Shown: positions 841 through 4,616 of the stretch, piece after piece
Position numbering within the stretch: position 1 is the first letter of the stretch
How the letters are laid out: every line of letters starts with the position of its first letter
DNA from: an uncultured Pseudomonadota bacterium
GTDB taxonomy: Bacteria > Pseudomonadota > Gammaproteobacteria > Steroidobacterales > Steroidobacteraceae
Direction: 5' to 3'
DNA: 64,000 nt
Assembly: GCA_903838705.1 (NCBI GenBank)
Contig: CAILZL010000015.1
Span: 1 to 64,000, forward strand
Translations under genes and position numbers: made by a program
The notes under the pieces: model-generated
What the model saw: the letters and a program-made list of their open reading frames with translations, nothing else
The model's database searches: none
Told to the model about the DNA's origin: nothing

Positions 841-2376
841 ATGACCACACCTGGAACAAATACCGCTTACACGCAACGCTCAAAGTTGCGCCGGTTCATA
901 CTCGCTTTATCCCTTTTCAGCCTTGCCTGCCTCTCAAACAGCGCTTCTGCCTATACGTTGCTGTTTGGCAAATGGGATGACCCGACCCGTGGCACCGGTG
1001 CTACCGTGTCATGGAGTTTTATTGCTGATGGAGCGGGCGTAGACACCAGCAATTATCACGATGGCAATCTGACGGGGCTAAGTTCGATCGGCACTTTGCG
1101 CCTGTCTATTGATTCCACTTATGGTACTGGTGCATTCGATGCAGCAGTCCAACGTGCATTCAACACTTGGGCTTCGGTGGCGAACCTGCATTTCAATCAT
1201 GTCACGGACAATGGTTCACCTTTCGCGGGCACTACGGCAATTGACATCCGCATCGGCGCCTATGTCTTTGCGTCGGGCTTTGCGGGTGGTGCAGGCTATG
1301 GCCCGCCCGGCAATGATCTGTTCTTTCCTGATCCACTGGCCGGCGATCTTGCCCTTTCAGCTAACAACAATTTTCAGATCGCACCCGGTGCCGAAGGCGA
1401 CCTGCTGCCAACTCCGGGCGGCGCGTATTTCAATGACCTAGAAGGACTGGTATTGCATGAACTAGGACACACACTCGGTCTAGGCCATTCAACCAACCCT
1501 GACTCAGTGATGTGTGGCTATGTGGACAGCAACTTTGATGGCAGCGCCTGTCACTACGAACTCATCAACCGGCAACTGGATGCAGATGACATCGCCGGCA
1601 TGCAGTTTCTTTATGGCCCGGCCACTCCACCCTACACAGTCGGCGGCAACGTTTCTGGGCTGGCCAATAACAAGTCAGTCACGCTGCTGAATAATGGCAG
1701 CGATATCAAAGTAGTTAGCAGTAATGGCGGCTTCACCTTCGCCAACGCACTGGCTTCCGGTACCTACACCGTGACGGTTGCAGTTCAGCCTGCCGGTCAG
1801 ACCTGCACGATCAGCAATGGCAGCGGCACCATCAGCAATATCCACATCACCAATGTGAGTGTGAGCTGTACCAACACCTATACCGTTGGCGGCAACATTT
1901 CAGGGCTGGCTGCATCAGGTCTGGTACTGAAACTGAATAGCACCAATCTGATCATTGCCAATGGTGCAAACAACTTCAAATTTGCCACTGCGCTCACCAC
2001 GGGTACCGCCTATACGGTCAGTGTGGGTATCCAGCCTGTTGGTTATCTGTGCACTGTCATCAACGGCAGCGGCACCATCAGCACCACCAACATCAGCAAT
2101 ATCTCCATCAGCTGCGCCAGAAGTTACACCGTAGGTGGCGGCATCACCGGACTGACCAAAGCCGGACTGATACTCAAGCTGAACGGCGGTGCCAACAAAA
2201 TTATTCCCAGCGGCGCCACCTCGTACACATTCGCCACCAGCCTCATTTCAGGCACACCCTACACTGTCACGTTTTCCGCGTTGCCTGCCGGTCTGAATTG
2301 CACACTTGGCAATAATCCCGGTGTGATGGGCTCTGCCAATATCACCAATGTGAATGTATCCTGCACTCCGCAGTAG
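841..2376 (+). CDS. Secreted matrixin-type zinc metalloprotease with three C-terminal repeats
   Basis: The 511-residue product has a signal peptide (hydrophobic segment about 17-37, ending ASA). A metzincin-like catalytic domain follows, with the zinc motif HELGHTLGLGH at 206-216 and a Met-turn-like SVMCGY at 222-227. This is the HExxHxxGxxH signature of matrixin/peptidase M10 enzymes. After residue 260 come three repeats of about 80 residues (265-343, 347-425, 429-508). Each starts Y-T-V-G-G and ends in V/I-S-C, and each has a central Cys-containing turn, so a disulfide-stabilised surface beta domain is likely. The next gene carries the same three repeats in the same order. It is probably an extracellular or surface protease; the substrate is unknown. 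Confidence 0.85.
   Translation: MTTPGTNTAYTQRSKLRRFILALSLFSLACLSNSASAYTLLFGKWDDPTRGTGATVSWSFIADGAGVDTSNYHDGNLTGLSSIGTLRLSIDSTYGTGAFDAAVQRAFNTWASVANLHFNHVTDNGSPFAGTTAIDIRIGAYVFASGFAGGAGYGPPGNDLFFPDPLAGDLALSANNNFQIAPGAEGDLLPTPGGAYFNDLEGLVLHELGHTLGLGHSTNPDSVMCGYVDSNFDGSACHYELINRQLDADDIAGMQFLYGPATPPYTVGGNVSGLANNKSVTLLNNGSDIKVVSSNGGFTFANALASGTYTVTVAVQPAGQTCTISNGSGTISNIHITNVSVSCTNTYTVGGNISGLAASGLVLKLNSTNLIIANGANNFKFATALTTGTAYTVSVGIQPVGYLCTVINGSGTISTTNISNISISCARSYTVGGGITGLTKAGLILKLNGGANKIIPSGATSYTFATSLISGTPYTVTFSALPAGLNCTLGNNPGVMGSANITNVNVSCTPQ
1633..2373 (+). repeat. Three-repeat surface module, copy 1
   Basis: Three consecutive units of about 245 bases encode Y-T-V-G-G...S-C domains. Unit 1 has GLANNKSVTLLNNG, unit 2 GLAASGLVLKLNS and unit 3 GLTKAGLILKLNGG. 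Units 2 and 3 match the corresponding units of the following gene closely at the nucleotide level, for example the stretch encoding TKAGLILKLNGG. Confidence 0.85.
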
Positions 2377-2441
2377 CTTTTTTCTGGACGATAGAACAAA
2401 TTTTAAAACTGGATTTAGTTATGGACAGGTACGGAATCATC

Positions 2442-4616
2442 ATGAAGCAAGTTGCCCTGGGTTTGCTGACTTTCATCGCCAGCCTTGCATTGGCTGGATT
2501 TAATCCTGCTCAAGCACAAGCCACCAGCAACCCCAACATTCTGCTGGTGCTGGATACGTCAGGCAGCATGAATCTGACCGCGAGTAGCTCGTCACAAGTT
2601 GCGCCCTATAACCCCAGTACTTCTTACCCTGATAATGGTGCCAACTGCAGCAGCACCAGTGTGTATTACTGGCCAAAATCAAAAGGCGCTGCACCAACTT
2701 CCTGTTCAGCGACAGGCCTGCTGTCATTTAACCGCAGTTCATATCTGAACTGTAAATCAGTAGTCAGTGCGCTGGATGGCCTTGCAGGCTACTACGGCAC
2801 GAATGATTCTTTCATCCGCCTAAGTAGAACTGGCAGCAACTATATCTGGGTCAGTGACATCAGCACTGCAACTCTCAATGTTGAATGTAAAGCCGATAAT
2901 GGTGTGTATGGTCAGAGCATGACTACCGCCGATAGCAAATACCCCAAAGCCGGCAACAATGGTAGCGTCACCTCTGCCTGGACCACTTCCTCCGGCAGTC
3001 AATGGTGGAGCGATACCAATGTGGGCGGGCAGTATTATCTGTTCAGCCCTAACTATATCCGCTATCTGCATGCTCCACCCCTTGTCACCACCCGAGCATC
3101 ACGGCTGAATGAAGTCAAAGCTGCGGTATCCACGTTCTTGAGCTCCATTTCAAATTCCACTGTCAATGTTGGATTGATGCGATACGACAGCAACGCCCAC
3201 GGCGGGATGGTTATTCAGCCCATCAAACCACTGGATGATGCGTATGCCACCACCTTGACCAATTCAGTGAATGACTTCCAGCCGTATGGCGGCACACCGC
3301 TGTCCGAGACGCTTTATGAAGCCTATCAGTACCTGCGCGGCGGGCCGGTGACCTATGGCAACAGCTCACAGGTCTGCAGCTCCATCTCGAATGCCAGCTC
3401 CAATGCCAATGGCAGTTGCAGCGGCTCCCTCGTCAACCTGTTCAGTACTGCCAGCTCGCGGGTGGGCGGAATCGCAAGCAGCAACACCTATAACTCACCA
3501 CTCGTTAATGCATCAGCAGCCACTGCTAACAATCTTATTATCTTCCTCACAGACGGCGAGCCCACCAGTGACATCGAATCAAACTCAGCCATCAATACTT
3601 TGACAGGAGCAAGCTGCTCTACTGATGGTGCATGTCTAGATGACCTTGCCAATTACATGTTCAATCACAATCTTGTGAGCGGCAGTAACTCCACCGTAAA
3701 GACGCACTTCATTGGTTTTGGTAGTGACATCGGTGGCAACGCCACAGCACAGGCCTATCTGCAGGCCGCCGCCACCGCAGGTGGTGGATGGCTATATCTT
3801 GCCGACAGCAATTCTTCACTGCGTGATGCGCTTGATGCCATTCTGGCCGATGCATTGGGCAGCGGCATCAGCTCCTACACTCTCAGCGGCACTATATCCG
3901 GCCTCGCACCAGGCAAGGCAGTCACGCTGGTTAACAATGGCAATGATGTACTCACACAGGATGTGGATGGTGAATTTATGTTCTCAAACCAGCTCGCTGC
4001 GGGCGCCAGTTACTCTGTCACCGTCGCGATTCAGCCCAGTGGTCAGATCTGCACAGTGAATAACGGCGCCGGCATCATCAACGCCAACATTACAAACATC
4101 GGTGTTAACTGCGTAAGCACTTATACCGTGAGTGGTTCGCTCACCGGCCTGTCTGCATCGGGACTGGTGCTGAGACTGAATTCAGCCAACCTGATCGTCG
4201 CCAATGGCGCGACCACCTTCAAATTTGCATCCACCCTGACCAGTAACAGTACTTACACAGTGAGCGTCGGCATCCAGCCGGCCGGATATATCTGTTCCGT
4301 AGTGAACGGCTTCGGCACCATCACTAATGCAAACATCACCAATGTGTCTGTTGAGTGTGCCAAAACCTACACGGTGGGCGGCAGCATTACCGGCCTGACC
4401 AAAGCCGGACTGATACTCAAACTGAACGGTGGCGCCACCAAAATTGTGGCGAGCGGCGCAATGTCTTATACCTTCTCTACCAGCCTCACTGCAGGAACAG
4501 CTTATCTAGTCACACTGCAATCACCGGATGGATTGATCTGTACCGCAGCCAACAATTCCGGTGTGATGGGTACGGCCAACCTGACCAACGCCAATATCGC
4601 CTGCACAACGCAATAG
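2442..4616 (+). CDS. Secreted PilY1-like von Willebrand A protein with three C-terminal repeats
   Basis: The product has about 724 residues with a signal peptide (MKQVALGLLTF...AQA). A VWA domain follows with the MIDAS start DTSGSM at residues 38-43 and later elements NVGLMRYDS, GGTPLSETLYEAYQYL and LTDGEP. The long Ser/Asn-rich insertion after MIDAS and the GGTPLSETLYEA block resemble the N-terminal half of PilY1-type pilus adhesins. The PilY1 C-terminal beta-propeller is absent; three repeats shared with the matrixin upstream replace it (about residues 479-724). I chose ATG 2442 because GGA lies six bases upstream and the signal peptide begins there; ATG 2421 is in frame. The gene follows the protease by under 70 bases, probably as one operon. 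An adhesin role is inferred. Confidence 0.8.
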   Translation: MKQVALGLLTFIASLALAGFNPAQAQATSNPNILLVLDTSGSMNLTASSSSQVAPYNPSTSYPDNGANCSSTSVYYWPKSKGAAPTSCSATGLLSFNRSSYLNCKSVVSALDGLAGYYGTNDSFIRLSRTGSNYIWVSDISTATLNVECKADNGVYGQSMTTADSKYPKAGNNGSVTSAWTTSSGSQWWSDTNVGGQYYLFSPNYIRYLHAPPLVTTRASRLNEVKAAVSTFLSSISNSTVNVGLMRYDSNAHGGMVIQPIKPLDDAYATTLTNSVNDFQPYGGTPLSETLYEAYQYLRGGPVTYGNSSQVCSSISNASSNANGSCSGSLVNLFSTASSRVGGIASSNTYNSPLVNASAATANNLIIFLTDGEPTSDIESNSAINTLTGASCSTDGACLDDLANYMFNHNLVSGSNSTVKTHFIGFGSDIGGNATAQAYLQAAATAGGGWLYLADSNSSLRDALDAILADALGSGISSYTLSGTISGLAPGKAVTLVNNGNDVLTQDVDGEFMFSNQLAAGASYSVTVAIQPSGQICTVNNGAGIINANITNIGVNCVSTYTVSGSLTGLSASGLVLRLNSANLIVANGATTFKFASTLTSNSTYTVSVGIQPAGYICSVVNGFGTITNANITNVSVECAKTYTVGGSITGLTKAGLILKLNGGATKIVASGAMSYTFSTSLTAGTAYLVTLQSPDGLICTAANNSGVMGTANLTNANIACTTQ
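3876..4613 (+). repeat. Three-repeat surface module, copy 2
   Basis: The same three-unit module as in the preceding gene, in the same order (unit types A, B, C). The third units of the two genes are nearly identical over their first 40 or so bases. This indicates duplication of the whole module rather than independent recruitment of single repeats. Confidence 0.85.

Follow-up and report, generated by a model that had tools for sequence, protein, structure and literature searches.

The question raised by this locus is why two neighbouring genes for secreted proteins with unrelated heads should share one and the same tail, and what that tail does for them. Both lie near the start of the window (the whole stretch of 64,000 nucleotides that was analysed). 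The Pfam profile search assigned the product of the first open reading frame (841-2376, 511 aa) to the matrixins (PF00413) and that of the second (2421-4616, 731 aa) to the VWA family (PF00092, E 1.1e-6); the true start of the VWA gene is likely the ATG at 2442 (table 1). The two genes lie on the same strand with 44 bases between them and are probably co-transcribed, promoter- and terminator-like sites at the pair showing no excess over chance. Their neighbours are two UbiH-like genes, which we take to be a ubiquinone-type hydroxylase cluster. The same two-gene cluster is found in genomes G001, G002 and G003 without the protease/VWA pair alongside, and searches of these three genomes for the two heads gave only PilY1 itself, in G001 and G003.

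Table 1. Features of the matrixin/VWA gene pair (positions in the window).
Feature	Position	Strand	Basis or remark
Signal peptide of the matrixin protease	841..951	+	sequence; ends ASA; cleavage site placed by eye
Matrixin (M10) head	952..1632	+	PF00413; zinc motif HELGHTLGLGH at 1456-1488
Protease tail unit A (MA)	1633..1878	+	unit comparison
Protease tail unit B (MB)	1879..2124	+	unit comparison
Protease tail unit C (MC)	2125..2373	+	reaches stop codon; without hydrophobic C-terminus
Signal peptide of the VWA protein, type preceding A-B-C in other genes	2442..2519	+	signal-peptide profile
VWA head, paralogous to the PilY1 N-terminal part of the same genome	2520..3875	+	amino acid and DNA identity; MIDAS-type motifs at 2553, 3288, 3549
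VWA protein tail unit A (VA)	3876..4121	+	sits where PilY1 runs on towards its beta-propeller
VWA protein tail unit B (VB)	4122..4367	+	unit comparison
VWA protein tail unit C (VC)	4368..4613	+	reaches stop codon

Each tail (1633-2373 and 3876-4613) consists of three units of 82-83 residues, arranged as A-B-C in both proteins. When protease and VWA protein are compared, the corresponding units A, B and C are 54.3, 63.4 and 70.7% identical at the amino acid level and 60.9, 66.7 and 72.0% identical at the DNA level, and blastn aligns the tails in a single block of 611 columns (68.4% identity, E 1.3e-61). The six pairs of non-corresponding units between the two proteins share 32.9-50.6% of their residues and the six unit pairs inside one protein 34.6-50.6%. 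Because corresponding units exceed both sets of values, neither low identity between counterparts nor a greater similarity within each protein was found; the earlier note's picture of adjacent secreted proteins with different heads and a common A-B-C tail, matching unit by unit also in DNA, is thus borne out by reading frames, domain matches and pairwise alignment.

The search for the same tail elsewhere in the genome, which the note had proposed, revealed that the module is genome-wide. The window's genome (2.74 Mb in 43 contigs) gave 76 tail matches; 21 repeat proteins were examined and contain 124 units, and the ordered triplet is found in 14 proteins, a lower bound, with several ABC genes at contig ends and two triplet frames running off them, one at each protein end. 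Subtilase, purple-acid-phosphatase-like, YHYH, matrixin and VWA domains are among the heads found with the triplet; lactonase-type proteins, which belong to the wider repeat family, do not have it. When triplets are compared pairwise, the A-A/B-B/C-C pairing scores best in 89 of 91 cases, with corresponding units averaging 60.4% identity, as against 46.7% for other units of different proteins and 47.9% for units of the same protein. This conserved register supports the part of the earlier proposal by which a whole three-unit module was placed, as one block, onto unrelated heads. The other part, a private duplication between the two neighbours, finds no support, for the triplet of C33g2 is nearer to each window tail (66.8% and 64.6%) than the tails are to each other (62.8%), though the window pair are sisters (100/95) when C units alone are considered, and the branching of M10, VWA and C33g2 in the module tree is unresolved.

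The triplet directly follows the signal peptide in 11 of the 14 proteins and starts at residue 401 in C28g1, and only the window pair carries it at the C-terminus. A general role as C-terminal sorting domain was rejected on account of this predominant position behind the signal peptide. Pfam and NCBIfam, as searched, hold no named family for the module, and no type IX secretion CTD family is among the Pfam and NCBIfam matches of the window proteins.

A search of 59 genomes gave tail matches at 1e-5 in 15, and tens of matches occur only in three, namely, the window's genome and two of its three congeners, the third (84% complete) giving zero matches. The wider repeat family is present in many bacteria (138 stretches confirmed, 80 loci kept), but the distinct B unit was recognized in only one of 320 units of the named loci, at an 8-bit margin and with unit profiles trained on the window's genome. 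Two weak triplets were found in these loci, one of them in L069, which is of the same genus and identical in sequence to G003; neither head was detected in the 80 loci within flanks of at most 6 kb on each side. Since the B unit is nearly absent elsewhere, the heterotypic A-B-C triplet looks like a feature of the genus. Fifteen plasmid records carry distant repeats. An origin from phages or plasmids was also considered and dropped, as zero phage records matched the repeat and the plasmid repeats are distant.

The spread of such arrays, both among bacteria and within the proteins of the window's genome, would be consistent with A-B-C being a neutral stalk, that is, with repeats propagated by recombination that lengthen proteins and whose position is meaningless. 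This explanation is improbable in our opinion: the triplet maintains its order and three distinct sequences in nearly all module pairs, the B unit is hardly ever met elsewhere, and most other copies are found at the N-terminus of the mature protein, a position in which an unanchored stalk would be of little use.

Structure prediction, also called for by the note, was carried out on the protease tail and yielded an all-beta model (pLDDT 96.4, pTM 0.78), on the basis of which the A-B-C units are predicted to be CnaB-like. The high ranks of the Foldseek and VIA-align searches were occupied by the pilus-tip protein PitA, CNA B repeats, SdrD and other CnaB-type stalks, with VIA Z values mostly from 6 to 10 (7.8 to FctB, 7.2 to a CnaB2 domain, 10.2 to three-domain PitA stretches), where single-unit values of 6 to 8 may mean a mere common arrangement. 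No Pfam CnaB or SdrD_B match was obtained for the window proteins, and SdrD_B was just below the cut-off in one relative. The likeness to the CnaB/SdrD B-repeat stalks of Gram-positive adhesins and pilins lies in the predicted fold and in the placement of repeats behind a binding head; the differences are a Cys pair in each unit, the lack of an isopeptide set and the lack of an LPXTG or membrane anchor. In one alignment (A1) both Cys residues of all three units are invariant; in a second (A2) five of the six are, with the sixth at 90% or more. A Lys/acid/Asn isopeptide set is not found among the invariant columns of either alignment, the Cys pair being there instead, as read from sequence columns.

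With respect to anchoring signals, both window proteins end with unit C, with neither an LPXTG motif nor a C-terminal membrane helix, and none of the 14 triplet proteins has a hydrophobic C-terminus. A lipobox, called by a fixed pattern, is present in 0 of the 14 triplet proteins versus five of the seven repeat proteins without triplet (Fisher p 0.001, rows not independent); the contrast does not represent 14 independent events because the signal peptides of the ABC proteins share a common ancestry.

The homologues of each head indicate what may have stood in the place of the module. In the protease, PF00413 covers residues 97-259 with 57.2 bits (cut-off 24; E 2.4e-15), and the HExxHxxGxxH zinc motif is found at residue 206. 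This head is rare, being found in three of 148 relatives and six of 369 genomes of the class (the window's genome counted in both). Seven homologues are available from other genomes (the G035 and G350 copies are 55% identical), and the tails of six were compared (G035, G350, G305, G490, G266 and G280; the weakest match, G037, was left out). All six exhibit, soon after the catalytic domain, a C-terminal VPLP-like motif followed by a hydrophobic stretch and arginines, presumably an exosortase-type sorting tail (PEP-CTERM/VPLPA type). The G350 tail reached 18.0 bits in the PEP-CTERM search, below the cut-off, and the naming of the G035 and G266 tails is weakened because no exosortase match was obtained in these two genomes. 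The window protease has the catalytic domain and zinc motif of PEP-CTERM-type matrixins, but A-B-C instead of a sorting tail: a PEP-CTERM/VPLPA-type tail is absent, the chain ends VSCTPQ with a hydropathy maximum of 0.88 in the last 60 residues, and unit A is at the place where the homologues carry theirs. From these homologues, at 37-55% identity, we infer that the ancestral tail of the window matrixin was a sorting tail. Loss of the exosortase as the cause of its disappearance is ruled out, as one exosortase-like gene (fused, in our reading, to a CAAX-protease-like part) and 10 PEP-CTERM matches are still present in the window's genome; thus, A-B-C did not replace a lost system.

The VWA protein gives a parallel and more detailed picture. 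The earlier note had called it PilY1-like, and its head is indeed a paralogue of that of the genome's own PilY1, with 75% amino acid identity over 445 residues to G000:C23:95741-97084, part of a frame of 1215 codons on contig C23 that matches PF05567 (E 5.4e-9) and lies inside a prepilin-like gene cluster. The match, which in DNA spans 2524-3798 at 73.8%, leaves out the signal peptide and runs from there to about the end of the VWA domain, shortly ahead of unit A. The PF05567 beta-propeller was not detected in the window protein even at E 1. Against a profile built from the ABC-family signal peptides (10 SP-ABC peptides; leave-one-out scores 14.0-37.7), the signal peptide of the VWA protein reaches 28.3, as compared with −4.8 for the peptide of the own PilY1 and −3.7 for that of the matrixin. 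In a set of 102 distinct signal-like N-termini, which includes the training peptides, no gene without the triplet scores above 4.0, and C28g1, which has a triplet but was not used for training, reaches 12.1; the VWA signal peptide belongs to the ABC type, unlike those of PilY1 and the matrixin. The new finding is that a second copy of this genome's PilY1 N-terminal part, lacking the propeller, makes up the head of the VWA gene and is set between an ABC-family signal peptide and the triplet.

Identity of the VWA head to PilY1 heads is 74.7% for the own one, 60.4% for G003 and 40.3% for G001, and, the own PilY1 being the nearest among the heads of the genus, the duplication is probably younger than the separation from G003, unless gene conversion has kept the two copies alike. 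The missing propeller and minor-pilin context could also be taken to indicate a PilY1 pseudogene in decay that was accidentally joined to the remnant of an ABC gene, but this is very improbable given an open frame of 731 codons, intact MIDAS-type motifs, a functional-looking signal peptide of another family and a dN/dS of 0.11 with respect to the own PilY1 (dS 1.56, near saturation), from which the head is judged to be kept by selection. No second VWA-ABC fusion was seen in the part of the matches in relatives that was examined, where contig ends conceal some cases: three of four short PilY1-like frames run off the contig end, and in the fourth (G052) the contig ends 82 bases past the match. 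A weak match of the whole VWA protein to CglB, a VWA lipoprotein of gliding motility (NF033757; E 8e-8, 31.7 bits), is far below the curated cut-off of 200 bits and confined to the VWA region, and the window protein lacks a lipobox.

In PilY1, the conserved C-terminal domain docks on minor pilins and the N-terminal domain is at the extreme tip (PMC7541494, PMC13190605), and the diversity of PilY1 has been described as a variation of the N-terminal heads, with the C-terminal part that docks on the pilus staying the same (PMC13190605). The window protein resembles PilY1/PilC of type IVa pili in its head, and differs by the missing propeller, the other signal peptide and its location outside a minor-pilin cluster, next to the protease and the UbiH-like genes. 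Because the docking domain is missing, the head should not enter the pilus by the known route. In the open literature on PilY1 architecture, head exchange and chimeras, no report was found of a PilY1 head on another chassis.

Both window proteins appear to have given up the rear portion they once had in favour of one common three-domain tail, which suggests an interchangeable localisation module. With a sorting tail and a beta-propeller both replaced, one module would stand in for two attachment devices, and, with a PilY1 head deprived of its docking part and a protease tail likewise exchanged, a location supplied by A-B-C is the economical reading. A-B-C would be a genus-specific trio of CnaB-like domains, each with its Cys pair, that fixes where a secreted protein stays by attaching it to the cell surface or matrix in the absence of a lipid, membrane or sortase anchor. 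Mostly placed right behind the signal peptide, it would in the window have come to stand behind two heads, in lieu of the VPLP-type sorting tail of the matrixin and of the pilus-docking propeller of PilY1, the simplest history of the VWA gene being that the copy of the PilY1 head landed in an ABC gene, behind its signal peptide and in front of unit A. We tentatively favour, at somewhat less than even confidence, a self-sufficient attachment or localisation module for which both window tails were exchanged. The surface anchoring proposed in the earlier note is thereby better supported than before, by the two replaced attachment parts and the lack of lipoboxes, yet unproven. A point against attachment is the resemblance of the predicted CnaB-like domains to stalks, since a stalk can do without any binding partner.

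Alternatively, A-B-C could be an export pass for type II secretion substrates, or a folding aid or shield from proteolysis, with the proteins released in soluble form. GspD is found above the curated cut-off in the window's genome (G000), G001 and G003, so that A-B-C could equally mark export, and the ordinary signal peptides of the ABC proteins, devoid of lipobox and C-terminal membrane helix, and their many enzyme heads agree with this possibility. We consider it doubtful: nine of 11 genomes searched have GspD above the cut-off although such repeats are scarce or lacking in most of them, which means that the occurrence of GspD does not follow that of the module, and the replacement of two attachment devices would be a coincidence.

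Returning to attachment, the pair would bring a protease and a MIDAS-type binding domain to one place. A broader formulation, which we regard as rather unlikely, sees in A-B-C a self-sufficient surface-attachment or sorting module of a Gram-negative genus, one that is usable at either protein end and can be swapped for a lipid anchor, an exosortase tail or pilus docking, and by which a pilus-tip head would have been moved beside a protease elsewhere on the cell. The arrangement is the reverse of the PilY1 diversity described in PMC13190605, in that here the head left the pilus protein for another chassis. Together with the protease, which shows the same exchange, the VWA gene represents a natural experiment on A-B-C, and, should location depend on A-B-C alone, this would amount to a portable attachment module in a Gram-negative bacterium, one without a named family in Pfam or NCBIfam as searched.

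A C-terminal piece of approximately 45 residues, SDPFWxIYSxPT...NPFxxC, is common to four of the proteins built of the repeat units.

Repeat proteins that end in the common C-terminal piece
Locus	Coordinates within locus
L031	8001-13028
L031	13217-19426
L034	568-2604
L035	4435-6204

Among the repeat proteins that lack the A-B-C triplet, a lipoprotein-type start is frequent (loci L037, 3848-7570, L039, L040 and L042), being followed in some of them by a Ser-rich linker. Repeat genes were also found at, or close to, the ends of contigs C3, C30, C32, C33 and C38 of the window's genome, so that its assembly is probably broken on such genes, and their counts are therefore lower bounds.

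In another genome of the genus (G003), PilY1 (contig C1, locus L184, 4895-8983) carries a long insertion within the VWA region, which is absent from the other copies. Contig C34 of the window's genome encodes an exosortase-like protein (locus L197, 1330-3024), the C-terminal half of which reads, from its sequence, like a CAAX-type protease.
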